Below are positions 108 to 49,013 of a stretch of 64,000 nucleotides of DNA, piece after piece. This stretch comes from Boletus sp. NGJ (taxonomy: Eukaryota; Basidiomycota; Agaricomycetes; Boletales; Boletaceae), in the NCBI GenBank assembly GCA_019096195.1, contig JAGTXK010000087.1:186001-250000 (forward strand), written 5' to 3'. Within the stretch, counting starts at the first letter, position 1; every line of letters starts with the position of its first letter. The position numbers and the translations under genes are program-made. The notes beneath the pieces were generated by a model. It worked only from the letters and a program-made list of their open reading frames with translations. It did not search any database and was not told the DNA's origin.

Positions 108-893
108 TTAATTCGGTAGTAGAGTTGATATGAGATACGTCCAGACAACCCAAGTCCATCCTCTTAATTCGTCGTCGTGTCTCACAGCAGGAAACCGTGG
201 GGCATTCTCGCACTGTTCGCGAGGAATGCAGTTCCGGAATATCAAGTTCCGGATGGCGTCCTGTGAATAAGTTCGACGTGTACGAGCGAGTGCAAGGTCG
301 TAGGGATCGTCATCAATGGAGGTGATGCATGCGTGATCAACGAATTCCATGCCATGATTTGAAAGCTCAACGGCGTTCCTGTGCCACCAATTCTCCATAT
401 CTCCACGCGCGTTCTCCAGTCCGGTTACGACGATGACCATGGGGACGGGGCTTTCCCGGATCAACGAGCGTACTGAACGGTAGTGACGGACCAGCGCTCG
501 TGTGGCTCTGGAGGCGCGAACGCAGTAGATCAAGAGAGACGGTTCGTTCCTTTTGAGGCGATTTCGAAGAAACGTTTTCAAGTTCCTTTCTGTAATGGCC
601 GCTCGGAAGAGTCCAAAAGAACCGCCGTCGAGACCGGCCGTGTCCCATAGCTTGTACTTCCTCCCACTAATGATCACATCGTATTGTTGAGTGCGGGTGG
701 TGCATGCGTTCGCATCTGGAGAGGTCTTTGCAACCTGCGAGCCGACGATAAGATTGATGATGGAACTTTTTCCTACACCACTCTCGCCAAAGACAATCAC
801 GTTTTGCACAGGGCGTGATTCTTGCTAGGGGGGGGGGGGGGGGGTCACATAAATACAGATTACACTCGAGTGTAGACGGACCATTAATGACAT
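108..893 (-). CDS. AIG1-like P-loop GTPase A, single domain
   Basis: A small GTPase; the continuous P-loop frame covers 108-824. G1 is GESGVGKSS, a CT pair marks the switch I region, G3 is WDTAGL, the G4 position reads VVTGLEN followed by 'MENWW', and an HACIT box follows. The open frame as such begins at a GTG (809), so I infer a spliced leader: ATG at 893, four codons, then a 57-bp intron (825-881, donor GTCCGT, acceptor CTAG after a 17-base C tract on the coding strand), joining in phase 0 to a QESRP... exon. The short tail lacks the basic/UBA-like C-terminal module of the longer paralogs and ends in a hydrophobic stretch (WTWVVWTYLISTLL) that could touch a membrane. Family placement is by motif order. 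The substrate (GTP) is assumed from the fold, and G4 is not canonical. The leader exon is the weakest part of the model. Confidence 0.8.
828..844. repeat. G17 homopolymer in the leader intron of GTPase A
   Basis: Seventeen consecutive G on the plus strand are seventeen C on the coding strand of GTPase A, directly before the inferred CTAG acceptor. It would serve as an extreme polypyrimidine tract. Length is likely to vary between strains or assemblies. Confidence 0.85.
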
Positions 894-1988
894 CGGGATA
901 GGGTTCCCAACGCTCGAAACGTCTTCTGGAGTGAGGAATTAGAGTCAAGGGTCTGTCAACTTGTTGGAAGGTCGAGCTGGCAAAGTGTAGCTGATCGGAT
1001 TATAAGTAGACTTGGCGTCCAGACCATGCCCTCCCGACACTCGCTGAACATTCTAATCCTGATATCTGGGGTCACGGTGGTGTGACTGATATGATGGTGC
1101 GCACGAGGCCCGGGCCCTTGTAATAAAAACGCCCGGGATCCACACCACGAATCTACTAAAAATTCAGCGCACAACGCACAAAGTATGACACTTGGACGTT
1201 CACCAAGATTTTCCACCCATCTCCGAGTCGGCTCTGCCAGGAAAATTGATTATGCTTTGATGCGACAAATAAGCGTTCCAAGCGGAGCCTTGTTGATATC
1301 ACCAAACTCAGTCCAGGGTTGCTGGCCTTGCTGGCCCCACGAGGCGTTCAAATCTGGCCACAGCATCATTCTTTGCTGACAAGGTGAAATGGCACGTTGC
1401 AATGGCATCAGGCAGGTGTTGCCCAATCCCACATTGCGCTGTTTCAAAGACATAATATTAACAAAGTAACAGGTTGCCAAGTTTTGTTGTCCCCGAGAAT
1501 GTGGGCCTAAAGTCACTGCGAGCGTCCGTGGACAACCAACTGTCCGAGGGAATCGATCCTTTGTGGTTTTCGGACCCTGCTGATATGTTAAGCTTGGGCG
1601 TGAGCGCCCTATAACCCACTCGATGGACGTCTATCAATCCATGTGTTGGCACCAAGCCGCATGGTTTGCCACGAGGCAGCGTCGACTGCCTTTGAAACCA
1701 AACCTCCCCCGTCCAAACCTCCATTCAAATCCTTCTGCAGAAACCGGGGTTCTTTCAGTCTGTCCATTACAATGAGTTCAGATTCATTCATCAACCTCTC
1801 AAAGGTAAAACCCCCATTCCCATGAATTGTTGTCGTCACAGCCGCTGATGTCCGCCATCCGGGTTGTTTTGCTCTAGGTGAAGTCTATACTTCCGTCTTT
1901 TACGTTCCGTCAGACGGTCCAGGGGGAGAGATCCCTTTTCCGTACTTCCTCAAACTTGTTTGCAACTGGAAGCGCCGAAAGCTTTCAT
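894..1988. other. Intergenic region between divergent GTPases A and B
   Basis: About 1.1 kb between two divergently transcribed GTPase genes. Open frames on the minus strand (for example 1458-1839) are short, have no motif I recognise and overlap each other in different frames, so I do not call them. The stretch probably holds both promoters. Confidence 0.5.
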
Positions 1989-4107
1989 ATGGCTGGTAAT
2001 GTTCGAGCGGACGATTGTCATTGAGTAGAACTCATGAGTGTTTTGCTCAGGATATACACCACCTCCCGGTGATTCACCACCCGCAGCGCAGCCTCAGACC
2101 ATCAACGTCGTACTTTTCGGCGAAACTGGTGTTGGTAAAAGTTCTGTCATCAACCTCATTGCTCGGAAGGAGGTTGCAAAAGTCTCATCGGACGTTAATG
2201 GTTGCACGATGCAATCCACGCGCCACGATATCGCCTTCGATGGCATGAATTTCGCCATATTCGATACCATCGGCCTCGAGGAACCCCAAATGGGAGTCAA
2301 CGGCTACCTGAAAGCTATTGGAAAGGCGTACGAGCTCATCATGAGGCTGGGAGCTGCTGGCGGCATCCACCTTTTGCTGTTTTGCATGCGCGGGGGCAGA
2401 ATAACGGCGACTACACAAAGCAACTACCGATTGTTCTGTGAATGTCTCTGTAACACAAAGGTACCCATAGCGCTCATTTTCACCGGCCTAGAAAGGGAAA
2501 TGGAAATGGAGGACTGGTGGACGAGAAACAGGGCCCATATAGAGCACTACGGCATCAAAAGCGATGGCCATGCTTGCATCACAGCAGTCCAGGATGACAC
2601 TCCCGGAGAAGATCTCAAGTACACGGAGTCGCAAACTAAGATACGCGAGCTTCTGAAAAGTTGCGCTCTCAAAAACGATGCCTTTTTACCAGAACCACTC
2701 ACTTGGTTCGCCAAGATTGGGAGGGGGATGAGGAGTTTCATCGAGAAGCATAAGAACCCGAAGAGGAGGGATGTTATGAAGGTATTGACGCATCGTTGCA
2801 AACTGGACCCGGAGACCGCAAGGAAGATCGTAGATATGATGGAGAAAGGCGATCCGGAGACCAAGGACGAGAACAAGGACGAGCAGGCGGGGAACACGGA
2901 AGGTGGAGGTCGGCCTAACCCAGAAGTGAAACCCGAGAGAGACGAGAGAGAGGTGGCGAAGGAGAACGTGACGAATAACAATGCCCCATCGAACCAGCCA
3001 GGCGATGTCAAGGCTGACCTTCATGTCGAGGGGATAGGGGAGAAGGATGAGAGGAAAGCCGCGAAGAGGATCGTTGCGAAAGACCATACCCCGCCGAACC
3101 AGCTAGGTGATGTCAAGGCTGAGCCTCATGTCGAGGGGATAGCACCGAACCAGCTAGGCGATGTCAAGGCTGACCTTCATGTTGAGGGGATAGGGGAGAA
3201 GGATGAGAGGAAAGCCGCGAAGAGGATCGTTGCGAAAGACCATACCCCGCCGAACCAGCTAGGTGATTTCAAGGCTGAGCCTCATGTCGAGGGGATAGCA
3301 CCGAACCAGCTAGGCGATGTCAAGGCTGACCTTCATGTCGAGGGGATAGGGGAGAAGGATGAGAGGAAAGCCGCGAAGAGGATCGTTGCGAAAGACCATG
3401 CCCCGCCGAACCAGCTAAGTGATGTCAAGGCTGATCCTCATGTCGAGGGGATGGGGGAGAAGGATGAGAGGAAAGCCGCGAAGAGGATCGTTGCGAGAGA
3501 CCATACCCCGCCGAACCAGCTAGGTGATGTCAAGGCTGAGCCTCATGTCGAGGGGATAGAATGCAAGACTGAGAGGAAGGCTGAGAAGAGGATCGTTGCA
3601 AAAGATCATGCCCCGCCGAACCAGCTGGGCGATGTCAAGGCTGAGCCTCGTGTCGAGGGGATGGAGGGGATGGATGAGAGGAAGGCTGCGAAGAAGAAGA
3701 ACGTGGGGAAAGACCATGCCCCGCCGAACCAGCTGGGCGATGTCAAGGTTGAGCCTCGTGCCGAGGGGATGGAGGCGTTGGGTGCGAAGATGAACATGAC
3801 GAGAGACCGTGTCTCGCCGAACCAACTAGACGATGTCAAGACTGAGCCTCGTACCGGTGCGATGGAGCGGAGAGATGAGAGGGATATTGCAAAGAAACAC
3901 GTCGTGAAAGACCATGCCCCGTCGAACCAGCGAGGCGACGTCAAGGCTGAACATCGTATCGATGGCGGGCAACACAAGTACGGGGGCGGTGGGGATCAAT
4001 CTCTGGGTGCGGACGTAGCAGAGCAGGCGAAGCAAGGCGATATCAAGAAGAGGCCACACTCATCGTTGCCTTCTCGATCGAGGCATGTTGTCGGTTCCCA
4101 GTCATGA
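1989..4107 (+). CDS. AIG1-like GTPase B fused to a long charged repeat tail
   Basis: The G domain is about 230 residues long. It has G1 GETGVGKSS, switch I GCT, G3 FDTIGLEEP, the family block TATTQSNYRLF, a G4 position reading FTGLERE, then 'MEDWW..N' and HACIT. After it come a tryptophan-led amphipathic segment and a basic UBA-like segment (KVLTHRCKLDPETA). The last ~390 residues are hydrophilic and mostly a tandem repeat with core NQLGDVKAEPHVEG and linker DERKAAKRIVAKDH. The start is inferred: ATG at 1989 in a 7-nt first exon (ATG GCT G), a 55-bp intron at 1996-2050 (GTAATG...CTCAG), then GA TAT in the correct phase, giving MAGYTPPP. The open frame itself begins only at a GTG (2038). The tail is predicted to be disordered. 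No other GTPase in the window carries such a tail, so it was probably acquired late in this lineage. Confidence 0.85.
2986..3966 (+). repeat. Coding tandem repeat (105 bp and 156 bp periods) in GTPase B
   Basis: The motif GATGTC (once GATTTC, once GACGTC) recurs at 3004, 3109, 3160, 3265, 3316, 3421, 3526, 3631, 3739, 3832 and 3937. The basic unit is 105 bp (35 codons). In the 5' part a 105-bp unit plus a 51-bp truncated unit form a 156-bp higher-order block: 3001-3156 and 3157-3312 differ at only two positions as read by eye. All spacings are multiples of three, so frame is kept. Divergence grows towards the 3' end, which points to recent expansion at the 5' side. Confidence 0.92.
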
Positions 4108-5401: not shown

Positions 5402-6755
5402 CTAGGTTGAGATACGTCTAGTAAAGAAAGCCTTGCTATGCCTACAGAACTTTTGGAACTTCGTTAACTTTTCCTCGAATTTTATCAGGCACTTCTCCTC
5501 AATGAGCGTGGCCAAGGCTTCATCGGCTCTTTCTACCATCTCCCTTGCACTATCAGGACCAGGGTAGTAAGTCGGATTGGCAATTATTTCTCCGTTGTGT
5601 GAGGACGACAAAAACCTCCACATCGTAGCCGCAGCCTCATGGTTGTCAAGTCCTACGAAAATGATGATAATCGGACACGTCTTTCCACCAAATGATACGT
5701 GGAACTGCTCAAGAGCAGTCCACGTCCGGTCTGATTCAGAATGTGCATCAGCGTAAAAGATGAGAAGATCCGTCCGCTGCATCGTCTCCACGTAAAGTTT
5801 TGGATCCCCAAGAAGCTGGGCGTCAACATAGAGACATCTATACTTCTGGTCACTGTCGCAGGTTGCTCCATATTCTGCGACAGTTGGGAAGGGATGGACC
5901 CGATTGACCGGCTCTGTGGCATCACAGATCATGATCAGAGGCGCCACCCTTTTCTCCGTTGAGCGGAGCAGAGCGCGAACATCAGGTAGGGAAGCAGAAA
6001 TCAACGCGTCTTCGTCCGCTTCCCAGGTTACGTCGTCGAACTTTGCTCGCACAAGATCACGAAGCACGTCTCGAGACTGCTTCAGCCGGTTTTGAATGGC
6101 GGGATGGTCGCTCCGTATCGTGGTGACACATGCATGGGCATCGAACCGCATACCATGTTTGATCAAGTCTCTTTCATGTTCGGTCCACCACGCCTCCATG
6201 TCTCCTTCATAATTCTCTAGCCCAGTAACGACCAAAGCCACCGGAACTTTCTTGCGACATATTGCGGCGTAGAAGATATTGTAGTTCCGGAGCAGCGCTT
6301 GCCTGACCCTGGTACCGCGGACGCAGTACACAAGCAGATCGATGCCGTTCCATCGAGTTATGTGGCGGAGGAAAGCCTTGAGACTACTTTCGGCTTGTGC
6401 AGCAGGCATGGTCCCTTCAGTGCCTTCGTCCAACCCGACGGTATCCCAGAGATTCACGCTGAGACCGTCAAGGAGGATCGGGTGGCATTGATACCGAAAC
6501 GTGCACCCGGCAGCGTTATTTGAAGTCTGGGTGATATCCTTCCCTGCAATCATGTTGATGACTGACGACTTTCCAACGCCACTTTCGCCAAACACGACGA
6601 CATTTCGAGCTCGAAGCAGATCACGCTGTTGTTTTTGCCAGCAACAAGTCAGCCAGGCAACCATCGAGGCGTGTAGCACTTACACCTGGGTCTGGCGTGA
6701 GAGCAGAGAATGGGGGGAAAACTGACTCGCAGGCACTTTGCGCACACGAATCCAT
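5402..6755 (-). CDS. Tandem GTPase C: active-looking N domain, dead C domain
   Basis: The predicted protein has about 431 residues. The first G domain is intact by motif: GESGVGKSS, AGCT, WDTVGLDE, VVTGLEN with 'MEAWW', and HACVT. From about residue 255 a second copy of the fold follows without a P-loop. Its strands DLLIFYADAH and PIIIIFVGLDN align by eye with DLLVYCVRG and PVALVVTGLEN of the first, but no GxxxxGKS or DTxG can be seen. I place the start at ATG 6755: a 72-nt exon encodes MDSCAQSACESVFPPFSALT..., followed by a 58-bp intron (6626-6683, donor GTAAGT, CTGAC branch-like site, acceptor CAACAG), joining in phase 0 to RDLLRARN just before the P-loop. A read-through start at 6679 is the alternative. 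The dead domain may regulate or dimerise with the live one; that is inference. Confidence 0.83.
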
Positions 6756-7456
6756 GGGTCCAGGGATACTGACAGAAGTCGCCGGGATGATCAATCTGTC
6801 GAGGCGCCGTCGAATATCCTACAAAAATGTCAACAGTTAGCAACTTATAGTGACAACGTCTACAACCTGTAGGATTGTACTGCATTTAACTACTTACTGG
6901 TAAGGATGTCTCATTTGGTGTAGGAAGACTCTGTTCGCCGAGCATGGCCATATTTGTGGCCATCTAGTCACAACACAGTTGTTGTGGTTCTGGGATCTGC
7001 ACACCAGATTCCAACGACTCCTGGGCCAGTACGGTTCAACGAGGCCAAGGCATGGCCGCGAACGCGACTCCAAATGTTGAGGTGACTGTGCCGAGACGCA
7101 TGCAACACAACTCCACAGAATGGACACAAAACATGTGCACACATCCTGGCTTCAGCGCGCCAATAATACGAAATCGTTTACAATCCCTTGACCCAGTCCA
7201 GTATCACACACGAGGAGTTCTCATGTTGTTCGGCCGGCAACCTATACTGTGTAGCGAAGATGATGCCTTGCCAAGTTTCCCAAGATAATTGATCAAACGG
7301 AGAACATCTTGAACCAGCGGGTTCCTTGCTTCCTGAGAGTGTTCGACACAGCCCGTGTCTGCCAGTCTGCTCGCAAACAGGACCCTGGGCAGGTATTTGC
7401 AAGTTCGGAGCACTTGGATGAGATTTCTGAACTAACGAACTTATGCATAGCACTTC
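6756..7456. other. Intergenic region between divergent GTPases C and D
   Basis: About 700 bp shared upstream region. A likely 5'UTR intron of gene D (7393-7450, donor GTATTT, CTAAC branch-like site, acceptor GCATAG) ends 7 bp before its ATG. Other small frames are not supported. Confidence 0.5.
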
Positions 7457-8272
7457 ATGTCTTCACGCGATGTCGCCCAAAATATCGTCATATTCGGGGA
7501 GACTGGTGCAGGAAAAAGCTCGCTCGTCAACCTCATCCTGGGTCGGAATGTCGCCGCAACGTCTTATGGTACCGACGGGTGTACCTTGGATTCCACCCTA
7601 TACGAAACCGATGTTGGGGAATATCATCTCCGTATCTATGATACCGTGGGCTTAAACGAGCCTCAACTAGGGGCTGAACACTATCTCGCCGCCATCGAAA
7701 AAGCACACCAGTTGATAACTTCCTTGAACAATGGCGGTGGTGTTCACCTACTCGTGTTTTGCGTTCGGGGTGGTAGAATCACCGCGACCACCCAACACAA
7801 TTATAGGTTATTCTACGAATTTCTCTGTTGTCGCCTAGTCCCCATCGCGCTCGTCATCACAAACCTGGAGTCCGAGACACCGATGGAGCGATGGTGGCAA
7901 CAAAACTCGCATGAGTTCACCAGATTCGGTATCGATTCCATAGCGCATGCGTGCGTCACCTGTACGCCAGGTTATGGAAACATGTACGCGGACAAATATG
8001 AAGAATCCAAGACGTTGATTTCGGATCTTCTTGCTAAGTGTGCTACGCAACACGCCTACGCTATCGACACTCGAACTTGGTTGACCAGCTTCTCACTCTA
8101 TCTCCGACAATTGGTCTACACTCGACACGTCCACAGCAGGAAGCAAATGGTACACATGTTGGTGTCACGTTGTGGGATGAGTCGGGATGATGCAGAAGTC
8201 GTGGTTTACAGGGTAGAGCAGGGTGGTTTGGAGGAAAGCCAACGGAAGGTGTTACGGTGTACAATGCAGTAA
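7457..8272 (+). CDS. AIG1-like P-loop GTPase D, single domain
   Basis: 271 residues from the first ATG. It has G1 GETGAGKSS, switch I GCT, G3 YDTVGLNEP, block TATTQHNYRLF, a G4 position reading VITNLESE with 'MERWW..N', then HACVT. The C-terminal part has the family arrangement: a W-led amphipathic helix (WLTSFSLYLRQLV), a basic linker and a UBA-like segment (MLVSRCGMSRDDAEVVV). An intron directly upstream of the ATG (7393-7450) matches the position of the leader introns in the paralogs, but here no upstream coding ATG joins in frame, so I take it as a 5'UTR intron. The gene lies head-to-tail with GTPase E (460 bp gap), which resembles it most in having an alanine in GxGAGKSS and GLNEPQ in G3, consistent with tandem duplication. 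Confidence 0.88.
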   Translation: MSSRDVAQNIVIFGETGAGKSSLVNLILGRNVAATSYGTDGCTLDSTLYETDVGEYHLRIYDTVGLNEPQLGAEHYLAAIEKAHQLITSLNNGGGVHLLVFCVRGGRITATTQHNYRLFYEFLCCRLVPIALVITNLESETPMERWWQQNSHEFTRFGIDSIAHACVTCTPGYGNMYADKYEESKTLISDLLAKCATQHAYAIDTRTWLTSFSLYLRQLVYTRHVHSRKQMVHMLVSRCGMSRDDAEVVVYRVEQGGLEESQRKVLRCTMQ

Positions 8273-8731: not shown

Positions 8732-9717
8732 ATGCCCGGCATGAAGAAGACCCACCATTGCAAAAGAGAAAGGTCAGAATCCGTCTCCAATGGTGCGGCG
8801 TCCGAGACTGAACATGCCCTCGTCTCATCTGTCAGAGTCAGACTCTACCCCTGCCGCCGACTAGCGAGTTTCGGCCGTTTCAGTGCCGATCCAACGTTGT
8901 GCTCTTCGGAGAAATGGGAGCCGGCAAAAGCTCGCTTGTCAACCTCATCTTGGGTTCAGATCATGATGTGGCAAGGACTTCATCTGGCGCCTCGAGCTGT
9001 ACCTTGGATGCCAGACCCTACGACGTTACGATCCAAGGGCGGGATTTTCGCATATTCGACACTGTCGGCTTGAACGAACCTCAGTCGCTCAGGGACCCCG
9101 ATTGCTTGATCGGCGCTATCAACAAGGCATATCGTCTTATTAGGTTCTTGTCCGACACCGGGGGCATTAACTTGCTGGTGTTCTGTATACGAAAGGGTAG
9201 GATCACCGCCAATATGCATCAGAATTACCTGCTTTTCCACGATTTCCTCTGCCACAAGAAAGTGCCCATTGCTATCGTTGTCACTCATCTCGAGCATGAA
9301 GAAAACATGGAAAATTGGTGGTTAGAGAACGAACCTCACTTCACACACTGTGGCATCTGCGTCATCGGTCACGCTTGCACCACCACAAAACGAGAATTCG
9401 GTGACCGATATCATTCCTCTAGGCAGGCGGTCCACGATCTTCTAATTACCCATGGTTGTGGAGTAGGCTTCATGCAGGAGAGGGTCAGCTGGGTGACAGA
9501 GTTGTTCCAGAAATTGCTGGATTTCGTGGGCTTCCAACCTCGCTTGGACTCTTTCAAAGTCAGGGCGCAAAAACTTCGCGAATATGGACTGAGGGAGGAC
9601 GAGATAACTGCGCTCCTGGTAAAAATCAGTGCAGCTGACGAAGATATGGACCTCGTCAAGCCACTGCGACCACATGTCCTCACGCTGCTCCGCGGTCGCC
9701 GAGGCACACATATATGA
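8732..9717 (+). CDS. AIG1-like P-loop GTPase E, single domain
   Basis: G1 is GEMGAGKSS, switch I SCT, G3 FDTVGLNEP, G4 position VVTHLEHE with 'MENWW..N', then HACTT. A W-led amphipathic helix and a C-terminal UBA-like segment (LREYGLREDEITALL) follow. The frame containing the P-loop has no ATG upstream of it: a stop lies at 8809 and the open frame starts at a GTG (8899). A leader exon from ATG 8732 to 8830 (33 codons, MPGMKKTHHCKRERSESVS...) ends in phase 0, and a 53-bp intron (8831-8883, donor GTCAGA, acceptor TTTCAG) joins it to TGC CGA TCC AAC, giving CRSNVVLFGE. This mirrors the leader introns of other members. The donor is not perfect, so the leader is a strong inference rather than a certainty. 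The gene converges on RDH54 with less than 100 bp between stop codons. Confidence 0.84.
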
Positions 9718-29862: not shown

Positions 29863-30611
29863 ATTGAGAATCAAGTATTAGTACTTAGAGTACTTGCGAT
29901 TGCGAAACGTGTATGTAATTCCCGAACTCAGCCTCACGCATGAACGTTTGAACTACATTCCATGGCAAGTCAACAACATATGTGTGGGTAACCGTCGACC
30001 GGCGTCGTTCATCAGAAAGTGGTACGGGTCAAGTGATATCGTTCGAAAAGCTCTTGGAACTGTAATGATTATGCTTTCCGTACTGCAAGAGCCACAATAT
30101 CACCTCCCCCGCTCTCGAAGTTCACAATAGCACATACACTTTGGTAATCGCGCGTCGCATCCGGAAGAAATGATTCGCATTCACACCATGTGTCCGCCTC
30201 ATGCATGTTGTGAGGAAAACCTTCCATGTGGTGATTTGTATCGAAAGAAGCACGGCAAGCCTCCAGCTGTCGTTCGACGCAGTAAACCCTGCACCACAAC
30301 CTTTCAACTCGAGGTGCAGAAATCGTCACGGGAACGAGCATCCTTCTTGGATACATCTGGGCTTCTCTCTTTTGAGTCGTCAGTGAGTATGTGTCACAGT
30401 ACGCTTGTCGATTCCTAGACGTGAACTGGCATTCATAATGTTTAGAGCTGACCACGGCAGTTCTGCCCATCTCACATCCCCTTCGTACTCTCGTCCAGCA
30501 TCGAGGGCGCGCTCGGTGGATCAAGAATTTTTCACCCCCACTAAGGCCAGTTTTCTTTCGGACAATGTGTCCGATCCAATGTGAGGCTAAAGGTGTCCAT
30601 AGCCTAGGAGT
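29863..30611. other. Intergenic region upstream of GTPase F
   Basis: About 750 bp. A 151-codon minus-strand frame (30069-30524) has no known motif and an odd composition (many Cys/Arg), so I do not call it. A CCTAG acceptor-like site 4 bp before ATG 30612 hints at an upstream 5'UTR intron, as in other members. Confidence 0.4.
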
Positions 30612-32057
30612 ATGGCCACTTTAAATGTTCTGTTCATCGGAGAAACAAACATAGGGGAAGGATCTATTATCGATCTCATTGCAGGTTCAAGGGAGCGGAA
30701 GAGAACCCCTCGCCACGCTGGTCGCCGCGCACTTGGCGATGACACGCGTAACGTTACGCTTGGTGGCAAGACATTCAAACTACATGTTTCGCCCACGAGC
30801 GAATCTACGTCCCCAGTGGCGCTCAGGGAAGGAATTCAGAACATATTGACGGACCTTTGCAGCAATGGCGGTATTCGCCTGCTTGTGTATTGCATGAATG
30901 CATTACATCCCAATGTGTGGATTCACGAAATTCATCGCACCATTGCTTCTAATTCAATCCTGCCCTCACGCATCCCCGCGGTTGCTGTCGTCGATGGAAT
31001 GTCCGATGTGGTTCAGCAAGAGAGTTGGTGGTCCCGAAATGAGAGTGCCCTGGCCAATCAAGGGCTCCACTTTGATGCCCACGCATTCATCCAGATGATG
31101 ACCACAGGCTCCCAGTCGCCTACCACGGATCACATCTCAGGGAGTCGTCATGCATTGCACACACTCATTCTCCAAAACTGCGCTTACGCCATCAACTCTG
31201 AAACAGACTCGGACTTCCAACGTACGGCCCCCTACAAACAACAATTAGGAAACTCATTTCAATCTCTCGTCACGTTAGCCAGGAAATCTTCCTCTCGCGC
31301 ATCTGCTGGTTCCAAAGCCATCGACATCGTACTGCTGGGCGAGATTGGCGTAGGTAAAAGCTCACTCATCAATCTGATCGCGAGGAAAAAGGTTGCCGGA
31401 GTATCATCGGACAGCATAGGTTGTACTCAGACTACCGCTGAGTATACCTGCGAGGAGAATGGGAGAACCTTCCATTTATACGACACCCCTGGCCTCGTTG
31501 ATCCTCAAATGGGTGCCGAATCCTTCATTGAACCAATCGATACCATCCAAAAGCTGATACGCAGGCTTGGCGATGGAAACGGCCCCGACCTTCTCCTTTT
31601 CTGCGCTGAAAACTCAAAGCCAACGGTAGCTCTTCAGAGAAACTATCGTTTGTTTTCCAAGATCATCTGCCAAAATAAAGTTCCGTTCGCTCTTGCTGTC
31701 ACGAAACTTGAGGAAGGTCAAGATGCACATCAATGGTGGAGTCAACACCGTGCCACGATTCGGAGGTATGGCATCGGCTGCTCAGGGTACGCTGGTATTG
31801 GACAGGAGAAACGACATTCGGGTCCCAACCCAGACTCGGAAGGGCAGTTGAGAGAGTCCCTCTTGTCGTTCTTTGTCACATGCACCGATCGACAGAGGCA
31901 CAGGGAAAGCTCGCTATTTTCCTCAATAGGCCGCAGGCTAGGTTTGGTTCCTTCCTTCCTACGTTCTCAAGAGCCGACGCTGGAGAAGACTTTGATGAAT
32001 CAGTGCGGACTGGAGGAGCAGATCGCTCGAGAACTTGCCAACCGGATGGTTGCTTGA
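30612..32057 (+). CDS. Tandem GTPase F: dead N domain, active-looking C domain
   Basis: 481 residues. The first domain keeps the fold's landmarks (LNVLFIGETNIG, GIRLLVYCMN, 'QESWWSRNE', FDAHAF), but its P-loop reads GETNIGEGS, with Glu in place of the phosphate-binding Lys, and no DTxG is visible, so nucleotide binding is doubtful. The second domain, from about residue 232, is intact: GEIGVGKSS, GCT, YDTPGLVDP, ALQRNYRLF, and a G4 position VTKLEEG, which is closest to a TKxD box among all copies. The usual UBA-like end follows (LMNQCGLEEQIARELANRM). Compared with GTPase C the order of live and dead domains is reversed. The single open frame without introns from the first ATG supports a working gene. 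Confidence 0.87.
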   Translation: MATLNVLFIGETNIGEGSIIDLIAGSRERKRTPRHAGRRALGDDTRNVTLGGKTFKLHVSPTSESTSPVALREGIQNILTDLCSNGGIRLLVYCMNALHPNVWIHEIHRTIASNSILPSRIPAVAVVDGMSDVVQQESWWSRNESALANQGLHFDAHAFIQMMTTGSQSPTTDHISGSRHALHTLILQNCAYAINSETDSDFQRTAPYKQQLGNSFQSLVTLARKSSSRASAGSKAIDIVLLGEIGVGKSSLINLIARKKVAGVSSDSIGCTQTTAEYTCEENGRTFHLYDTPGLVDPQMGAESFIEPIDTIQKLIRRLGDGNGPDLLLFCAENSKPTVALQRNYRLFSKIICQNKVPFALAVTKLEEGQDAHQWWSQHRATIRRYGIGCSGYAGIGQEKRHSGPNPDSEGQLRESLLSFFVTCTDRQRHRESSLFSSIGRRLGLVPSFLRSQEPTLEKTLMNQCGLEEQIARELANRMVA

Positions 32058-33130
32058 AGCAATCTTATATCAGTGACAGGATGTACAAATTTCTCGTCCG
32101 TATGCTTTATATCATGACTTATATTCTTGTTTCTTTGACACAAGTTCCTCGATAGTTACGCAACTCGAATGTGAAGATGCCCCTAATCTCAAGAGTTTTG
32201 GCCAGTCTCGTTAACAAGTAACTTGAGTGGCGTTGCGAGTGATACACAACCGCGCAATGTTGGATCAAACCTGAATATGCGTACTTTTGGAGTTGATTTC
32301 TGCGTCAGAAACACCGCGTCTTGGTTGGTAATAATATCTTGGCACGACTGCTGCGGCCCATTGAAGTGCGGAGGCCATATTGAAGCTGATGCGAAACAGA
32401 TACATAGCCTTTACTGAGCCTTGATACACGATGGTCACCTTGTCCGTTGACCACGTGCAGAATGCCATGTACCTACAGGCCCGCCGTTTGCTGCACGACA
32501 TCCACGATGTTACAATATTTGGTTTATCTACATCATGATCATGATTCAACGTGCTACCCCATGGCACCGCTTTTGTGACCTGGGAGGGTTCATTCGTACT
32601 ATGTACCAGCATTCATCGGGAGAGTCTGTCTTTGACTCTAACTTCCAACTGGGAAGTACGAGAGACCACCATGATGCACCTCCACTGGCAAATATCTCTG
32701 GCGCTGAACCCACTGTCCATGATGGGAACTTCCTGACCACGTTCCAACCCCCTCCGAACAAAGCATTGCCATGCACGGCACGAGTCCTCGTGTCGACCCC
32801 CCCCTCCAACTGGCACGCGATTAATCACCGAGGATCATCTGGACCAGTCGAGGCACCCAGCACCGTCGGGTGCATTCGCCTACTAGGCTACTCCCAAAAC
32901 ACAAATACCACCGCCTGTCAATTCGCTAGCCTCTAGTCCTCTCTCCATCGACCCACCCTCAATTTGTTAACCTTCACACTCTTCGTCGTCCCGCCACTTC
33001 CTTGATAGTGGTCAATTATCTCTAACTGCTGCACACGGATCATACACATTTTTAACGCCCTTTGAATTCTGTGGTATGTATGTTGCAAGCCAGTCGATGG
33101 GGGCCGATCTAAACGTCCGATAGATTACTC
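32058..33130. other. Intergenic region with the 5'UTR intron of GTPase G
   Basis: Contains the upstream flank that is duplicated before GTPase H. A 50-bp intron (33074-33123, GTATGTATG...GATAG) ends just before ATG 33131 and is matched by a 50-bp intron before H. A minus frame at 32265-32612 has no recognised domain. Confidence 0.5.
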
Positions 33131-33975
33131 ATGAGCACTGGGTTGAACATCATCCTGTTTGGAGAGACGGGCGTCGGAAAGAGCTCGGTGATCAACCTGA
33201 TTGCTGGGAGGCAAGTCGCAGATACCTCTCCAGACGTTCAGGGTTGTACCATGTCGTTCAAGCCGTACACTTTCCCTGTGAAGGGCCGAAGTTTTCATAT
33301 CTGGGACACGGTTGGCCTGGAGGAGCCAGAGATGGGTGTCAATGGCTACCTCTCCGCAATCGAACAGTCTTTCGAACTGATCCAACACCTGACAAGCCAG
33401 GGTGGTGTTGACCTGCTACTTTTCTGCATTCGCGGAAACAGAGTCACTGCGACTACGCAGAGCAACTATAGGTTGTTCTACGAAGTACTTTGCAGGTCCA
33501 AAGTCCCGATCGCAGTTATCGTCACGCACCTCGAGCGGGAACCCAACATGGAGAAATGGTGGGAGAGAAACGTGGACAGTCTAGATAAGTACGGCATCAA
33601 AGCTGCGGGTCACGCATGCGTTACCGGGCTGCCGACGCACAGCAAGTACCGGGAATCGCAACACAACGTCTGGAAGTTGTTGGAAGGGCGTCACGCTGAA
33701 GGGAGATTCAACATGCCACCAGACGGGTGGTTCATCGAGTTTCTGCGCGCGTTTGGACTGTTTGCCCCTTTGAAGGAGAAGTCGAAGCGGAAGGACATTA
33801 TGAAGGTCTTGACGAAACGTTGCAGATTGGATCCGAAGACGGCAGAGGAACTCGCTGTTAAGCTGGAGGGGGCTTGAGTTGGACGGCGTTGTATTATGGG
33901 TTCACCGGTATAGTTACGTTTCACGAATACCGGCCACGTCAAATTTCTGATCGTACATGTAAACATGTATCTTTC
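32650..33975 (+). repeat. Segmental duplication unit 1 (carries GTPase G)
   Basis: Pairs with 34360-35470. Shared landmarks read by eye: the upstream GCCATGCACGGCA and AACACAAATAC, the GTATGTATGTTG intron start, the whole GTPase coding region, and downstream GGGCTTGAGTTGGACGGCG followed by GTTATGGGTTCACCGG-like sequence. Edges are approximate. Confidence 0.75.
33131..33877 (+). CDS. AIG1-like P-loop GTPase G, single domain
   Basis: 248 residues and the tidiest family member. G1 is GETGVGKSS, switch I GCT, G3 WDTVGLEEPEMGVNGYL, block TATTQSNYRLFYEVLC, G4 position VTHLERE with 'MEKWWERN', HACVT, then a W-led amphipathic helix (WFIEFLRAFGLF), a basic linker and the UBA-like C terminus VLTKRCRLDPKTAEELAVKL. 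The first ATG is used; a 50-bp intron lies immediately upstream in the 5'UTR. It is the parent-like copy of the decayed GTPase H 800 bp downstream and is closest in sequence to B and I, which share the GLEEP..G.NGYL segment. Confidence 0.92.
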   Translation: MSTGLNIILFGETGVGKSSVINLIAGRQVADTSPDVQGCTMSFKPYTFPVKGRSFHIWDTVGLEEPEMGVNGYLSAIEQSFELIQHLTSQGGVDLLLFCIRGNRVTATTQSNYRLFYEVLCRSKVPIAVIVTHLEREPNMEKWWERNVDSLDKYGIKAAGHACVTGLPTHSKYRESQHNVWKLLEGRHAEGRFNMPPDGWFIEFLRAFGLFAPLKEKSKRKDIMKVLTKRCRLDPKTAEELAVKLEGA

Positions 33976-34359: not shown

Positions 34360-35470
34360 AGGTACGAATGATCATCATGATGCGGTGTACACTGTACAAC
34401 TCAAGGTCAGCGGCCCTCTCCGCAGCGTTGCCATGCACGGCATACATCAATCCTCCCTCTCCGACTGGCCCTCACCCAGGCTCACGGTCTTGACAGGTCT
34501 TGACATCCAGCACCCTCGAACGTGTTACCCTGCTCCCGTAACACAAATACTACCGCCCTCAATCCGGTGTTCCTTTCTTCTTTTATGTCCTTGAATCTCA
34601 GCGCCGGTATGTATGTTGTAAGCCAGTTGACAGAGCCCAACCTGAATTCCGAACAGATTGCTTATGAGCTCTTCGATGAATATCATCCTGTTGGGGAGAG
34701 AGAGGCGTCGGAAAGAGCTCGGTGATCGACCTGTTTGCTGGGAGGCAAGTCGCGGATACCTCTCCGGACGTTCAGGGTTGTACCATGTCGTTCAAACCAC
34801 GGTACACTTTCCCTGTCAAGGGTCGAAGTTTTCATATCCATATCTGGGACACGATCGGCCTTAATGGGCCGGGGGTGGGTGTCAACGGCTACCTTTCTGC
34901 GATCGAACAGTCTTTCGAACTGATCCATCACCTGAGAGGCCAACTCACTGCGACTACGCAGAGCAACTATAGGTTGTTCTACGAAGTACTTTGCAAGTCC
35001 AAAGTCCCGGTCGCACTTGTCATCACGCACCTCGAGCGAGAAGCCGACATGGAGAAATGGTGGGAGGGAAACTTGAAAAATCTAGAAAAGCATGGCATCA
35101 AAGCTGCGGGTCACGCGTGCGTTACCGGGCTGCCGACGCACAGCAAGAACCGGGAATCGCAACACAACATCTGGGGGTCGTTGGAAGGGTGCAGCGCTGA
35201 CGGGAGATATAGCATGCCCACAGCAGGGTGGTTGACTGAGTTTTTGCGCTCGTTTGGACTGTTTGTCCCTCTGAACAGCTCGTCAAAGCGAACGGACATC
35301 ATTAAGGTCCTGACGAAACGTTGTAGGATGGATCCGAAGATAGCAGAGGAGCTCGCTGTCAAGCTGGAAGGGGCTTGAGTTGGACGGCGTTGTGTTATGG
35401 GTTCACCGGGGCGGTTACGTTCAGCCACTTCAGGTTTCCGATCGTGCACGTAAGCGTGCTTTCGTGTTAT
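34360..35470 (+). repeat. Segmental duplication unit 2 (carries GTPase H)
   Basis: Second copy of 32650-33975 in direct orientation, including upstream flank, 5' intron and 3' flank, so the promoter region was duplicated with the gene. The upstream flank is more diverged than the coding part. Confidence 0.75.
34664..35378 (+). pseudogene. Decayed copy of AIG1-like GTPase (H)
   Basis: A tandem duplicate of GTPase G. Coding similarity starts at the matching ATG (34664), but an extra base inside the P-loop (about 34690-34705, GGGAGAGAGAGGCGTC against GGAGAGACGGGCGTC in G) throws GKSS out of frame. From 34722 the frame is as in G (GCTMSFKP, WDTIGLNGP). About 17 codons covering the strand VDLLLFCIRG are missing between HHLRGQ and LTATTQSN. 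The rest, 'MEKWWEGN', HACVTGLPTHS and the UBA-like end VLTKRCRMDPKIAEELAVKL, is intact. A product translated from an internal start would lack the P-loop and a core strand, so nucleotide binding is not expected. The remaining open frame of 218 codons suggests recent decay. Confidence 0.82.
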
Positions 35471-37201: not shown

Positions 37202-38011
37202 CTAGGTGAGTAGGCCCGCTAAACGCCTTGCTGTTTCCCCGTCCATGTGACAGCGCTTCACTAATGTACGGACCATCTTCTCCCCTTTCGGCGGATTCTT
37301 GCCGTGCAGAAAGCTCCCTAGACCAACCAACAGTCTTGCAAACCATGGCTCTGGTTGCATCAAGAACCTTCGTTTGTTGCTCAACTGCGACAGGAGAAGG
37401 TTTTGCAACGTATCTTTTGATTTGCCATACTTGTCGTCTTCCTCAACCCCGGTGACGCATGCGTGCCCAACACTGCGAATACCATACATCTCAATGTACT
37501 TCTCGTTCCTCATCCACCAGTCCTCCATTACCACTTCCCTCTCCAAGTTGGTGACGACCACAGCAATGGGGACCTCCTTGTTACACAGGACTTCGTGGAA
37601 GAGCCGGTAATTGCCTTGAGTTGTTGCTGTGATCCTGCTGCCTCGTATACAGAACAGCAGGAGATCGACCCCCCCTGCGTTACCCAGCTCACGGATGAGC
37701 ATATAAGCTTTCTCGATTGCAGACAGATATCCGTTAATCCCCATCGTGGGTTCCTCAAGGCCGACAGTATCCCAGATTCTGACCTCGGCGCCTCTGAAGG
37801 AGAGGGTGTATTTGGTGGACTGTAAGGTGCAACCTTCAACATCAGAGGATACTCTCGCGACTGGCTTTCCTGCAAGGAGATTTATGACGGAGCTTTTCCC
37901 GACACCTGTTTCCCCGAAGAGAATTATATTGAGAGCTTCTGGAGTATCCCATGTAGTCGATGAATTCATCATGTGGTTTGAACGGGTGTGCTCACCGTCG
38001 GACGGGGGCAT
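37202..38011 (-). CDS. AIG1-like P-loop GTPase I, single domain
   Basis: G1 is GETGVGKSS, switch I GCT, G3 WDTVGLEEPTMGINGYL, block TATTQGNYRLF, G4 position VVTNLERE with 'MEDWWMRN', HACVTGVEE, a W-led amphipathic helix (WFARLLVGLGSFL), basic linker, and UBA-like end (TLVKRCHMDGETARRLAGLL). The ATG at 38011 opens a frame of 269 codons, but a well-formed intron lies inside it: 37939-37995, 57 bp, donor GTGAGC, acceptor CTCCAG. Splicing gives MPPSDEALNIILFGE; not splicing adds 19 in-frame residues and no stop. The position matches the leader introns of B, C, E, J and K, so I favour splicing, with retention giving a second viable isoform. It lies closest to B and G in sequence. Confidence 0.9.
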   Translation of the reverse strand: MPPSDGEHTRSNHMMNSSTTWDTPEALNIILFGETGVGKSSVINLLAGKPVARVSSDVEGCTLQSTKYTLSFRGAEVRIWDTVGLEEPTMGINGYLSAIEKAYMLIRELGNAGGVDLLLFCIRGSRITATTQGNYRLFHEVLCNKEVPIAVVVTNLEREVVMEDWWMRNEKYIEMYGIRSVGHACVTGVEEDDKYGKSKDTLQNLLLSQLSNKRRFLMQPEPWFARLLVGLGSFLHGKNPPKGEKMVRTLVKRCHMDGETARRLAGLLT

Positions 38012-39618
38012 TTGCAGTGCTAGTATGAGTTAACGACCGATTCGGTATAGGCTGAATAAACAGCGAGAGTCGACTGTCTGTAATTGGTTTGGGTGGCAAC
38101 AAGGTTGGCTGTCGACCAGAGGGTGGGTTGAGCCGCAAGGAAAGCAGTGTTTGACTGGACCATGCTGAGCCCAGGAGTCAGACGTCCATGGACAGGCTCG
38201 ATCTGGACCAGTACATGTGGGTGTACAGCATTACAATGGCTTATAAAAAAGTCAGGCAATGCGTCATGCGCGAACATCACGCAAGTAGATCCACGCACTT
38301 GCGGTCCTTGACAAAGCGACGCGTGAGTCGGAGGTATGGTTTTAATAGCGAGCTCCAAGATTGATCCACCCGGTGGGTTTTTGGGAGGACGAACAACCTC
38401 TTCCGTAGCCTATCAGACATGGATTAACCAGCAGTAGGAATAGGATCTGAAGACAATATTAGAATCGATGATGAGCAGGTGCTCCAAGCAAACGCTTGAC
38501 GCGCTGGCGCTACTGTGCCGACGTCAGCTGGTTCAATGGACTTTTGACCCTCCATTGAAACTGGTCTTGCCGAGGAACCGAGCAATAGATGGCCCCAAGC
38601 GATAACATTTATGAGATCGATATCGATCAAAGTTGCTCGTGCGACATTAATGTCATTTAATGACATTCTACCCACGTTCGTCGTGGAATGCACAGCGGAC
38701 CTGTTTTAGGGTGATGAGACGTCAATTCAATGTGTCAGTGTTAACATTAGTGGAAGTCAAGCTCAGAGCGCGTCGTCAACAAGAGGAAAACAACAAGCTA
38801 TAAGAGTGACTCGGTCTGTGGTGTACGGGAGGATAGCGTAACTGACCGATTTGATGCTAGGTCAAAATCCCCGTGGATTATCCTCAGATCCACGGCATGT
38901 CGATGCCAGCGTAGTGGCACCATCGCAATGTCCATACTGGACAATGTACCTCTGCGTAGATTGTGGTTTGTCAAACTAGGTTGTAGAGTGCTGATGGAAG
39001 ATTACGCTAACTTGGAATGATGCAGGTGAACTAATAAGATGAGTGAACAGCGAGGAGCGGCCGAAGATGGCGATGGAGGCCGACGGTGTATCAGTTGGTG
39101 GATACGCCAAGAAGCGGAACGTGCGAGAGACTACGGATATGACTAGTCGCTGAGGGCAGATGCCGACACGGAGGACGTTTGCCGAGACAGGGAATTTGAG
39201 CCCGGGAGGAGAGGGGATAGAAAGAGGTAAACATGCATGATACACGTGTTGATTTTCCCCTTTTGTTCTCTGATCCGAGTTGGTGACTGTGATGGAAAAC
39301 ATGAGGCCTGTCCTGGCGCAGCCTGCACATGTTGTGGGCGTGCCTAGGGAGCGAAACAAACAGGCTTTTATTCGGGCGCATTGTTCGCGTCGGCGAGTAC
39401 GTCCACTACGACGGAGGTGATCCAGTTAGACTGTGCACAGCCACATATCCAGCTCAAAAGGCAAGCACGCTGCCGTCTCACTTTCGCACGCCTCTCTGTC
39501 AGGGCCATCCGTTCTCTGCATCTCCTCCTCCCCGACGACGGCGACGACGACGACGACGACATCCATCACGACCCACATCCAGTTCTCATTCACATCCTAC
39601 ACGTCTTCCACCTTGCTA
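38012..39618. other. Intergenic region between divergent GTPase I and ABC-like gene
   Basis: About 1.6 kb. Minus frames at 38020-38358 and 38976-39381 show no domain. The region ends with CT-rich sequence and a GAC/CGA simple repeat before the ATG of the ABC-like gene. It probably holds both promoters. Confidence 0.45.
39533..39560. repeat. (CGA)n trinucleotide repeat in the 5' leader of the ABC-like gene
   Basis: A run of CGA/GAC triplets with one CGG interruption, about 60 bp upstream of ATG 39619. Confidence 0.75.
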
Positions 39619-44804: not shown

Positions 44805-45336
44805 ACCCGGTATGTAAACCTCGTATTAAATGTACGTGTTCGTGTTCTGATCTTGCCGACTCTCAGTCTTTTATCCTCTCTTCTCTTTTTACCCAGTCCT
44901 TCCTTTTCTCCATTGCTTGTCATCCTGTCATTGGGTTTCCCCAACCACGGATGCTCATGCAGTTGTAAATGTAAAAAGAAACACTGGCATGCAATCGTAG
45001 TCCTGTTTTCATTTCTTTGGTATCTTTCCATCCTGTTCGGCTGTACTTCTCTCGCAGTATTCCTTTGTGTATTATTGAAACAACGCGCTGTTTTCTCTAC
45101 CAAAAAACAATCTGGCAAGTTTGCGAAAGGATGGAGCTCGGCGGACAACTTTGAAGACTACCATTAATCTGACGCGGTGATCACCAATATCGGGCACGAA
45201 CAATCATAACATGTACAAGGGATACGCAGCTACAGACATCAACATCATCAAGCATCAAAATTTGTCCGGCGTGGCGTAGAGATTGAGATGAGCTTTTAGA
45301 AACGCGAGACCACGGATTCAACATCGATGGGGTTGA
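44805..45336. other. Intergenic region between convergent RRM genes
   Basis: About 530 bp holding both 3'UTRs. A 104-codon plus frame here is T-rich and hydrophobic but overlaps the UTRs and has no motif. Confidence 0.5.
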
Positions 45337-46012: not shown

Positions 46013-46536
46013 GATTGGAGTGGGTCGAAAGAGAGCGATGCTGAGCGCCAACTAAGGTTCGACTCGTTTTTTATAGTGCGTTTTTCAGACTCCCCATTTG
46101 GTGTGTGGGAAACTCGCATTGCTCCGGTCACAATCCGCTCTTATCAACAGTTCCTATCCCGGCCTTGTTTGATCCAACCAATATCGATTGCTACCTCGCT
46201 CTCCATGAAGACGAGGCCTCGACTGGGTCAGCTCCTCAACGCCTTGTACATGCTGCAGCCTCGAGGCCTCGTTTAATGTGATGAACCTCGCAGGGGAACG
46301 CTCAACCCGTGCTGCATCATCTGAGATTCTCATCGCCGTTCAAACGGCCATTCTCTTCACGCATCCAGAAGATTGAAATTCTGGAACCTCGTATACTACT
46401 GGTCCGTAACCGAGCCATTTGCCCTGCTAACTCGCATCACTTCCTCCAGGCCTCTAGCCATAGAAAACCTCTTTACCCGATGCTGTCGACCTGAGCTTGG
46501 TCTCCTCGCTGGTGTCCAAAGTCGTCTCGAAACATC
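46013..46536. promoter_or_regulatory. Divergent region between RRM gene 2 and GTPase J
   Basis: On the minus strand TATAAAAAA (46067-46075) lies 55 bp before the RRM start codon and is a good TATA box. The rest, up to ATG 46537, carries no supported frame. Confidence 0.5.
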
Positions 46537-47297
46537 ATGTTTCGACACTTTTGTGGCCTTTTTCGCTTCCTGAAGCGCCCCAAGTCATCGTCACCTTCGA
46601 CTGAAATTGGTCGACAAGGGTAAGTGGCAATGCGTCTTGGCTCCATCAGCGACTCAAGCTAGGGTTTAGGGAGTCTCGAAATATTGTCATTCTCGGATCA
46701 CTTGGCGTCGGGAAAAGCTCCCTCGTGAACATGCTCACCGGGAGGGCTGTCGCTCGAGTGAGCAGCGACATTGGCGTCGCACATCCAGCCATCGTGGAGT
46801 ATCCCATCTCCTTCAGCGAGATTTCAGGAGACACCTCTTCGCACCTCCAGCCGCCCTGTTCCGATCCTATGCTCAGGTTTTACGACACACTTGGGTTGGA
46901 ACATCGTCCGTCACCTTGGGGGGCGATCAAGGCGCGTTTGAAGCGCAGTGGCGGTGCCGATGTCGTCGTGTACTGCATGCGCCGTGGCCGACTGTCGAAC
47001 GAGCAGGTGGCGCACCTCCGCACCATCCGGAAGACCTTCTGTCGAGGAAACGTTCCCTTGGTGCTGGTCGTCATTGGTGTTGACTATCGCCGTGGATCCA
47101 CTGAGGAGTGGTGGGAGGCGAATGGCGAGGATCTTATCAACGCTGTTCAAGTCGACTTTACTGATCACATATGTCTGAATACTTGGGACTCGGCTCACCC
47201 CTCCTGGAAACACCAAGGCGCGAGGTACGAGGAAACACAGAGGCTTGTTCGTCACCTAGTGATACGCCACTGCAGAAGTCTACATTCTGATTCGTAA
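46537..47297 (+). CDS. AIG1-like P-loop GTPase J, divergent short member
   Basis: Exon 1 (46537-46619) encodes MFRHFCGLFRFLKRPKSSSP..., a 50-bp intron (46620-46669, GTAAGTGG...GTTTAG) follows in phase 2, and exon 2 begins GESRNIVILGSLGVGKSS. The protein has 236 residues. G1 is GSLGVGKSS, G3 YDTLGLEH, the strand VVVYCMRRGR is kept, the G4 position is VVIGVDYRRG (neither NKxD nor the family's T.LE), then 'TEEWWEANG' and DHICLN. No UBA-like C-terminal segment. An insertion (SGDTSSHLQPPCSDP) lies before G3. The leader has a Phe/Leu/Arg-rich stretch that might associate with membranes. It converges with the tandem GTPase K, and both share WWEANGE. Confidence 0.86.
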
Positions 47298-47465
47298 TCG
47301 ATCCACTGTACGTATGTACCACATACTGTATAGCTGGGCATTGAATATTCGTACTCTTTATTGGAAACTACGAAACAATCTGTGCTTGTGCTCTATAGGA
47401 GGTTGGAATTGGTCTAAGGGCCTACTGCTAGTAAGGCTGAGAACCGACCGTATAAGATGCGACAA

Positions 47466-49013
47466 CTAACGTGGTGGATAGAGCATCTTGGTCAATTCCT
47501 CGGCCTGTTCCTTGGTCAATCCACAACGGTCCATGAGGCTCTTGACGGTTACCTTGTCCTTCTTTGGTGGGTTTCCAACTCTAACCAATCCTACAAGCTT
47601 TTTCAAGAATGTCATGACCCAGGTTCCCTCGTCGTCATGAAATGCGCTGCCATAAGAGATCGAGTCCTCAAGCATGGTTTGGACCGATTCCCTGGATAGT
47701 AATAGTTTGTCATGAAGCTTTCGGTCGTCTGGGTCGTCCGGCGTTTGCGACGTGATACACGCATGCCCGGCCACCGCGCTCGTCTTCAGGTTACAAGCTT
47801 TCAGGAGGCCCTCCCCATTCGCCTCCCACCACTTCTCCATTGGGCTGTGAGACTCGAGGTGTGTGATGATGAACGCGACTGGGATTTGGCCTTCGCAGAG
47901 GAATTCTTGGAAGAGCCTAAAGGTGTTCAATTCTGAAGGCGTGAGCCGACCGTATTTTTTGCAAAATACAAGCAAGTCAATACCGCCTTGTCTGTGCAGA
48001 TCGCGAACTAGGTGGACAGCGTTCTCTATGGCCTTTCCGCACACATCGTGCCCGATATGGATCCCATTGAGACCTACTGTGTCCCAGAACAGGAACTGGT
48101 ACAGTCCCGTGTTGATCTTGTAACTGCGGGAAATCCAGCGTGCAACTCTCTATGCCAGAGGAGACTTCTGCTACCTGTTGCCCAACGACGAGATTGACGA
48201 TTGAGCTCTTTCCAACGCCCGACTCTCCAAAGAGGATCGCGTTCAAGGGTCGTTTCGGCAGCCTGAACCTCTCCATCAATGTCGTAGCGTCGCGAATGCT
48301 CAATTGGGAGTGAGTATTCAAGTTTGTAACAGTGCTGGCAATGTCTGATGAAAGATCGAGACGTAGCGGGATTGGGGTGGTAGCATGGTTGTCTAATAGC
48401 GCCATCAACGCCTGCTTGGATTGATCGTAGATAGTGCCGGATTGCGGGGATCCGGTTTGAACCGTGGTGATGCATGCGTATGGGATAAATTGGACTGGAA
48501 TGCCACATCTCTGGGCGATAATATTCCTGTTTCGGTCCCACCATTGGTCGTCAGGGCTATCAAAGTGGGTCAGGACGAGGGCTATCTTCGCCCGACCACC
48601 AAAGAAAAAGCTGTCCAGCAGCCAATAGAGGCTTCGTAGCCAAGCGTTGATTCCGTCTTTCCGGGCACAGAGTAGAACAAGGTCAACGCCATCCTGTAAA
48701 TTTCGCAAGAGAGAGTGCGCCTGTTCGTAAGGGGAAAGCGGATTGATGTCCTTTGCTTCGGCTTGGTTGAAGCCCATTGTATCCCACAATCGGAATTTCT
48801 TCTCTCCGAGCGAGATTGGGTACCATCGGGCTCGCTTGGTGCAAGCCTCCACACCGGTAGACACGTTCGCCACCGGTTTGTCAGCGAGAACGTTGATGAT
48901 TGAGCTCTTCCCGCAACCAGTGACACCGAATAATGCGACCTTGTACACCCGTCTGCGAACGATGTTGGTTGAAGGTCACTACTTCAATGTTGTGCTCACT
49001 CTGCTCTGCCCAT
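47466..49013 (-). CDS. Tandem GTPase K with a one-base frameshift in domain 2
   Basis: Leader exon MGRAE (ATG 49013, 14 nt), a 47-bp intron (48953-48999, GTGAGC...TCGCAG) in phase 2, then RVYKVALFGVTGCGKSS. Domain 1 has WDTMGFNQ, LVLTHFDS, 'DQWWDRNR' and YACITT. Domain 2 starts at LNAILFGESGVGKSS and reads SCTLDFP before the frame is lost. The correct continuation, YQFLFWDTVGLN, DLLVFCKKYGR, IITHLESHSPMEKWWEANGE, HACITS and the UBA-like end LMDRCGLTKEQAEELTKML, is in the next frame down to 47466. The break lies at a TTT (plus-strand 48131-48133): one T too many in GATTTCCC. No splice solves it. The downstream frame is perfectly conserved, so this is a recent mutation or a base-calling error in a short homopolymer. 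If real, the product would end early in domain 2. Confidence 0.82.

Follow-up and report, generated by a model that had tools for sequence, protein, structure and literature searches.

GIMAP GTPases are, as far as is known, lacking in representative fungi such as yeast, according to a passage of PMC7053062. AIG1-like matches in fungi are noted as uncharacterised, among P-loop NTPase matches, in part of PMC6872716, and proteins joining AIG1 to a Hint domain are described from the Glomeromycotina in part of PMC8778642. The GTPase family considered here lies in a 64,000-nucleotide stretch of DNA from Boletus sp. NGJ (contig JAGTXK010000087.1, positions 186,001 to 250,000), hereafter the window, which carries eleven loci, named A to K. 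Among the literature matches listed, no Basidiomycota member of this family appears in the titles or abstract beginnings, nor is the family described in the passages of PMC5473757, PMC3192844, PMC8708209, PMC3948071 and PMC9815663 that were retrieved; in a passage of PMC3764205 AIG1 matched through strain names alone and that paper was set aside. The loci are best explained as a locally duplicated AIG1/GIMAP-like G-domain family with GIMAP-like pairing, membrane contact and dead regulatory partners, a statement that as a whole is given a probability of about 0.4. Its first part, the assignment as AIG1/GIMAP-like, is very probably correct. The mechanism of pairing, arginine lending, membrane contact and regulation is tentative, with the odds somewhat against it.

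A six-frame motif search together with stop-to-stop open reading frames (ORFs) placed the loci between positions 111 and 48,975, with seven of them on the plus strand and the remaining four on the minus strand. They fall into three loose groups: A to E (0.1–9.7 kb), F to I (30.6–38.0 kb), and J and K (46.6–49.0 kb). Ten domains (A, B, C1, D, E, F2, G, I, J and K1) were used to make a family profile, against which they score 210.9 to 341.8 bits. The domains left out of the profile score 214.5 bits (H), 143.7 and 53.8 bits (K2, two pieces in different frames) and 81.9 bits (F1), while the second domain of locus C, C2, reaches just 8.7 bits (i-E 0.11). The next best ORF in the window scores 5.0 bits and the top score per shuffled window is 3.8–7.0 (10 windows, two-base blocks). 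Because their profile scores stand above the shuffled windows and the other ORFs, 13 G domains are secure; C2, near the shuffled scores, is a doubtful fourteenth. Likewise, hhalign identifies F1 as a clear family member (99.2%, E 3e-19, 183 columns) and gives C2 a probability of 53.2% over 53 columns. In the structure prediction of locus C (mean pLDDT 59.8), C2 is mostly below 50 and has no confident fold. A sequence-only reading of the window had counted eleven loci and fourteen G domains, with tandem pairs and damaged copies of one GTPase family. The loci, the pairs and the damaged copies are borne out by the motif search, the ORFs and the profile, and the domain count is reduced to thirteen with one in doubt. 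That reading also had the loci interspersed with housekeeping genes, which is the case between the groups but not inside them, where the copies are near neighbours. No further copies were found by the family profile at 10–30, 38–46 or 49–64 kb, where any piece with a signal no stronger than that of C2 would escape.

Motifs were counted by eye on the aligned domains (n=14). The G1 motif GxxxxGKS is present in 12, as a GxxGxGKSS variant that mostly has E, not K, after the first G, and G3 reads DTxG in 12; C2 and F1 lack both, and only F2 has a proline at the variable position of G3. G4 is T-x-L-E in 10 domains, the exceptions being K1 (THFD), J (IGVD), C2 (VGLD) and F1 (DGMS). WW is found in 13 domains, M-E-x-WW and HAC[VIT]T in nine each, and FNN in none. 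All fourteen domains had been said to share G1, G3, a T.LE at G4 and the WW to HAC block, which these counts show to be an overstatement. The G4 glutamate is taken to stand for the aspartate of NKxD because K1, J and C2 carry D at that place. According to a passage of PMC11594714, guanine is contacted by acidic residues other than those of NKxD in 61 of 298 complexes, which makes GTP binding by the intact members plausible. G3 is followed by a box of the LLxFCxRGxRITATTQ type, whose arginine is present in nine of the 12 P-loop domains.

Comparison of predicted folds argues for the AIG1/GIMAP-like assignment. The AlphaFold model of locus I (pLDDT 80.3, pTM 0.78) has a canonical G fold, and the phosphate-binding motifs that belong to it are intact in 12 of the 14 domains. 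In a search of this model against the PDB, GIMAP chains took all of the top 12 places (E 7.6e-10 to 9.8e-9, with the 13th match at 1.8e-8), making the GIMAPs the nearest predicted fold. In the viral fold library (BFVD) the first match is the Sylvanvirus protein A0A3G5AHU3, annotated as AIG1-type (E 6.1e-14), followed by a second match at 2.5e-9 and a third annotated as AIG1 family. The E-value of this Sylvanvirus protein beats that of every PDB chain in the PDB's own library for the same model.

Pfam results for the 10 ORFs with matches (cut-offs MMR_HSR1 21.9 bits, AIG1 27, Septin 26.2) are divided. AIG1 is second in eight ORFs and above its cut-off in six (A, B, D, F, G and I; 28.4–36.1 bits), the other four having 20.2–26.8 bits. 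Septin (PF00735) is nowhere above cut-off and appears, among the matches listed, only in A (15.2) and C (11.7). Neither the later K2 piece nor C2 or F1 on its own is matched in Pfam at E 0.01. MMR_HSR1 (PF01926) is first in all ten ORFs, at 35.5–57.7 bits and always above cut-off, and this is the leading point in favour of the strongest alternative, that these genes are a fungal MMR_HSR1-type expansion with general TRAFAC likeness, no special tie to AIG1 and ordinary, partly redundant roles, for instance in trafficking or organelles. EngA/Der heads the PDB sequence searches both with the profile and with locus I alone, for which the best GIMAP is GIMAP5, and NCBIfam returned solely sub-cut-off matches to many bacterial GTPases (7 proteins, best 25 listed for each). 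The copies are also old and under constraint, as discussed below. Further points weigh against a special GIMAP relationship. The TM-scores to GIMAPs are 0.48–0.56 by query length, not above that of Toc34 (0.53), those of small G proteins, Arf and MnmE among them, are higher when normalised by target, and 1,437 chains match the model at E 0.001. From G3 on, only five PDB chains are found at E ≤1 (Toc34 at 0.047, a beta-glucosidase at 0.77, GIMAP2 at 0.84 and 0.90, and a snRNP component at 0.97). GIMAP2 thus reaches 0.84 at best once G1 is removed, and the sequence similarity of the second half, taken by itself, is not significant.

Against the MMR_HSR1-type expansion are the twelve GIMAP chains at the head of the fold ranking, the AIG1-type protein in first place in the viral library, the six ORFs above the AIG1 cut-off and the presence of the box with its arginine. 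The EngA matches mostly cover the first ~80 profile positions, and GIMAP7 covers positions 7–210 of 260 (among the best 60 of 235 matches, E 0.01). Such an expansion is considered unlikely. The family most likely stands on the side of TRAFAC that holds AIG1, Toc34 and the septins (the 'paraseptin' side in a passage of PMC11238149). The label AIG1-like given to it before is the nearest one, in that GIMAP/AIG1 proteins are first in two fold libraries. It does not denote membership: MMR_HSR1 scores higher in all ten ORFs, the G4 and G5/IAN motifs differ, and the family is outside AIG1 as AIG1 is defined by its motifs.

Searches of other sequence sets show just that close relatives of the members used are absent from the prokaryote and virus sets. 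Pattern scans of viral contigs with locus I and with an alignment of I, B, G and D matched 1 and 21 stretches, and scans of genome contigs with locus G and with the same alignment matched 32 and 420, none of which was confirmed (tblastn E 1e-3). The tblastn search of locus I against plasmids and phages had no match at E 1e-5. A reading as bacterial defence proteins was dropped, the PADLOC matches in 5 proteins (LeoBC, LeoA, mad8, mad3 and QatA) covering the P-loop region only.

Beyond the computed fold and motifs, we infer a mechanism in which intact members would bind GTP and pair via their nucleotide faces, with the box arginine lent between partners and speeding hydrolysis as reported for GIMAP7. 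The box aligns with 'VLLLVTQLGRYTSQDQ' of GIMAP2 at E 0.84, placing its arginine opposite the arginine of GRYT. We take this position to be that of the finger residue of GIMAP7. A figure legend in PMC8066113 states that GIMAP7 supplies both itself and GIMAP2 with an arginine finger. Membrane contact may be made by the amphipathic helix that follows the G domain. Such a hydrophobic, mostly W-led helix is found in eight members (B, D, E, F2, G, H, I and K2), five of which are at or under 3.2% in amphipathy compared with shuffles, and R-C-x-[LM] follows the helix in six of them (absent from E and F2). Members or halves without a P-loop or without the arginine (F1, F2, K1 and perhaps C2) would then be regulatory partners. 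F2 retains G1 and G3, and K1 its P-loop. Several features speak against this mechanism. G4 has a glutamate in place of aspartate, which makes GTP itself an assumption, the box arginine is missing from three of the 12 P-loop domains (F2, H and K1), three of the eight tails are indistinct from shuffles in amphipathy, and the tail helix of locus I is modelled at a pLDDT of ~50.

Open frames run across the dead halves of loci C and F, which are therefore not the product of plain decay. A given frame would stay open by chance with a probability of 1.9e-4 over the 185 codons of C2 and of 3.9e-5 over the 219 codons of F1, which suggests that these are kept, non-catalytic halves. Tandem pairs with a dead half had been described, and for C and F the halves are catalytically dead but not simply decaying. 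In locus K, K2 has intact motifs, yet a frame change cuts it between G1 and G3. An intron in place of this frame change was rejected, as the GT-AG stretch removes conserved switch I sequence and leads into the wrong frame.

Loci G and H stem from a tandem duplication that spans ~0.95 kb, with 79% DNA identity. Their dS is 0.27 and dN 0.11 (ratio 0.43), with 33, 19 and 41 differences of 235 at each codon position, and 22 of 66 and 31 of 136 in the flanks. Locus H has a frame change just ahead of the P-loop and a 42-base deletion by which it has lost the box arginine and the strand following G3; it is the duplicate in decay that had been noticed before. In the remaining 11 pairs that were tested, pS is 0.72–0.89 and pN 0.30–0.48. 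For these dN/dS is unusable, dS being infinite in seven and 2.46–4.52 in four, and they are old copies under purifying selection with synonymous sites near or past saturation. A tree of 13 rows was made without C2 and with K2 from G3 on, and a tree of 12 rows additionally without F1. In the 13-row tree none of the 10 branches reaches the strict threshold, and locus A moves from C1 (70/72) in this tree to J (74/72) in the 12-row tree. For these reasons only the groupings of D with E and of G with H are used, each of them adjacent in the window and paired in the tree. The support for D and E, which are likely to be sisters, is 91/87, or 95/94 without F1. Since the copies are neighbours inside the groups and these two pairs are adjacent, local tandem duplication accounts for much of the layout. 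Taken together, the copies point to local duplication at a slow pace, accompanied by some decay, and not to rapid turnover. Of the birth-and-death evolution proposed earlier, the recent duplication of G and the breakage of H stand, but the other pairs, old and constrained, leave it weak.

These ages bear on the suggestion that the family evolves fast and serves immunity, allorecognition or stress responses, its GIMAP-like proteins being gained, lost and damaged to different extents among strains. This is distinctly unlikely, with 11 of the 12 tested pairs old and constrained and a single recent duplication in 49 kb, even though the multi-copy layout, the one fresh broken duplicate, the dead halves and the recent repeat copying in locus B would suit it, as would the expansion of animal AIG1 families and their response to immune challenge described in a passage of PMC7053062. 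That the frame changes in H and K2, a single one in each, are assembly or base-calling errors in otherwise intact genes is more improbable still, such errors explaining neither the 42-base deletion of a core strand in H nor the loss of the P-loop lysine inside the open frame of F1. Under the AIG1/GIMAP-like reading, an immune or allorecognition role could be proposed by analogy only. A fuller version, in which mixed dimers of intact, arginine-less and P-loop-less paralogues would act at membranes and copy gain, loss and death would tune a cell-death, nonself-recognition or stress response, is highly improbable.

Table 1. GTPase loci of the window and parts of them, with positions counted from its first nucleotide. 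The first exons of loci A, B, E and K are not secured.
Feature	Position	Strand	Characteristics
Locus A	111..824	-	Single G domain; G1, G3, TGLE and box Arg; hydrophobic C-terminal end; MMR_HSR1 51.0, AIG1 28.4 bits
Locus B	2038..4104	+	Intact G domain, tail helices, charged repeat tail; AIG1 35.0 bits
Repeat tail of B	2990..3962	+	Units of 156 bases (3.0 copies, 97%), 105 bases (4.5, 87%) and 51 bases (5.0, 65%)
Locus C	5405..6679	-	Intact C1, then C2 in one open frame; AIG1 26.6 bits, below cut-off of 27
C2	~5405-5992	-	Doubtful second domain of locus C, without P-loop
Locus D	7451..8269	+	Intact single G domain, tail helices; AIG1 36.1 bits
Locus E	8812..9714	+	Intact single G domain adjoining D; AIG1 26.8 bits, below cut-off
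Locus F	30603..32054	+	F1 fused to F2; AIG1 33.2 bits
F1	30612-31268	+	First half of locus F; P-loop lysine missing
Locus G	33113..33874	+	Intact single G domain, tail helices; AIG1 34.0 bits
Locus H	34680..35375	+	Broken tandem copy of G; MMR_HSR1 20.6 bits (cut-off 21.9), no AIG1 match
Locus I	37205..38029	-	Intact single G domain; AlphaFold-modelled member (37205-38011); AIG1 30.3 bits
Locus J	46605..47294	+	Divergent single G domain; IGVD at G4, HICLN at G5; AIG1 20.2 bits, below cut-off
Locus K	47469..48975	-	K1 and K2; AIG1 24.0 bits, below cut-off

The coordinates of the loci are given in Table 1. The charged tail of locus B is ~397 aa long and 36.8% K, R, D and E. Its 156-base unit is composed of the 105-base and 51-base parts, and all units preserve the reading frame. 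The repeat tail previously ascribed to one locus is real. The three 156-base units (97% alike) are far closer to each other than the gene copies are, and the tail of B therefore changes on a shorter time scale. Locus C has a likely 58-base intron with GTAAGT and a branch-like site, although a start inside its ORF is also possible. Locus J has a likely upstream first exon across a 50-base GTAAGT intron, and no tail helices were seen in it.

Among the neighbouring ORFs, 7 of 26 reach a Pfam cut-off: synoviolin/RING, YqeY, queuosine salvage, NAD kinase, RRM, ABC transporter and ankyrin. These gene families and the likely short introns in J and C identify the window as eukaryotic DNA. Beyond the GTPase loci, two plus-strand ORFs (50764-51528 and 53958-54356) resemble duplicated zinc-finger genes in that their Cys and His residues are arranged in a similar way (C..H..C..C..H..H..C). 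Pfam matches zf-TRAF to the second of them below its cut-off (23.7 against 27 bits) and nothing to the first. An 811-aa open frame on the minus strand (59297-61729) combines ankyrin repeats with an extended stretch rich in Ser and Pro.

Whether AIG1-type GTPases share an ancient role at membranes or in defence could be tested directly in a fungal family that has a GIMAP-like fold, an altered guanine motif and naturally occurring, catalytically dead copies. If it is merely a constrained expansion with ordinary duties, a sharper description of such genes is still gained.

AIG1-like proteins of fungi are mentioned for Rhizophagus, with an expansion in the Glomeromycotina, in parts of PMC8778642 and PMC6872716. 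Compared by description, the AIG1 and Hint combination of that group differs, as the ORFs of the window have no Hint domain (Pfam, E up to 1). In the Sordariales orthogroup OG0000027, matches to MMR_HSR1, RsgA, Septin, AIG1 and Dynamin_N overlap just as ambiguously in Pfam, according to a passage of PMC12258605; this orthogroup is an ascomycete set, left out of that survey of NLRs, and is likened to the present family by this overlap only. The chloroplast import GTPase Toc34/Toc33 is among the better PDB sequence matches listed (E 7.9e-12), has 'DT.GLE.P..G' in common with the family and is at rank 23 by fold, but the sequence match stops before G4. To our knowledge fungi have no chloroplast, unlike the setting of Toc34/Toc33. 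The comparison with AIG1/GIMAP/IAN itself (PF04548; structures of GIMAP1, 2, 5 and 7) can be made motif by motif, using the reference motifs printed for Biomphalaria in a passage of PMC7053062. The GxxxxGKS core of the AIG1 G1 motif GKTGxGKS is shared. The other motifs differ: DxPG at G3 is replaced by DTxG, in which V is commoner than P, TxGD at G4 by T-x-L-E, and RxVLF(D/N)N at G5/IAN by HAC[VIT]T. The AIG1 box LLVLKYGxRFxxTxEE may correspond to the box of the window family, whose alignment with GIMAP2 is weak. The window family also has its own tail helices, and its AIG1 scores do not exceed 36.1 bits. What it has in common with the GIMAPs is the nearest predicted fold, a GIMAP-style box after G3 with a candidate arginine finger, and an organisation in multiple copies, which in animals form local clusters (in a passage of PMC7053062).

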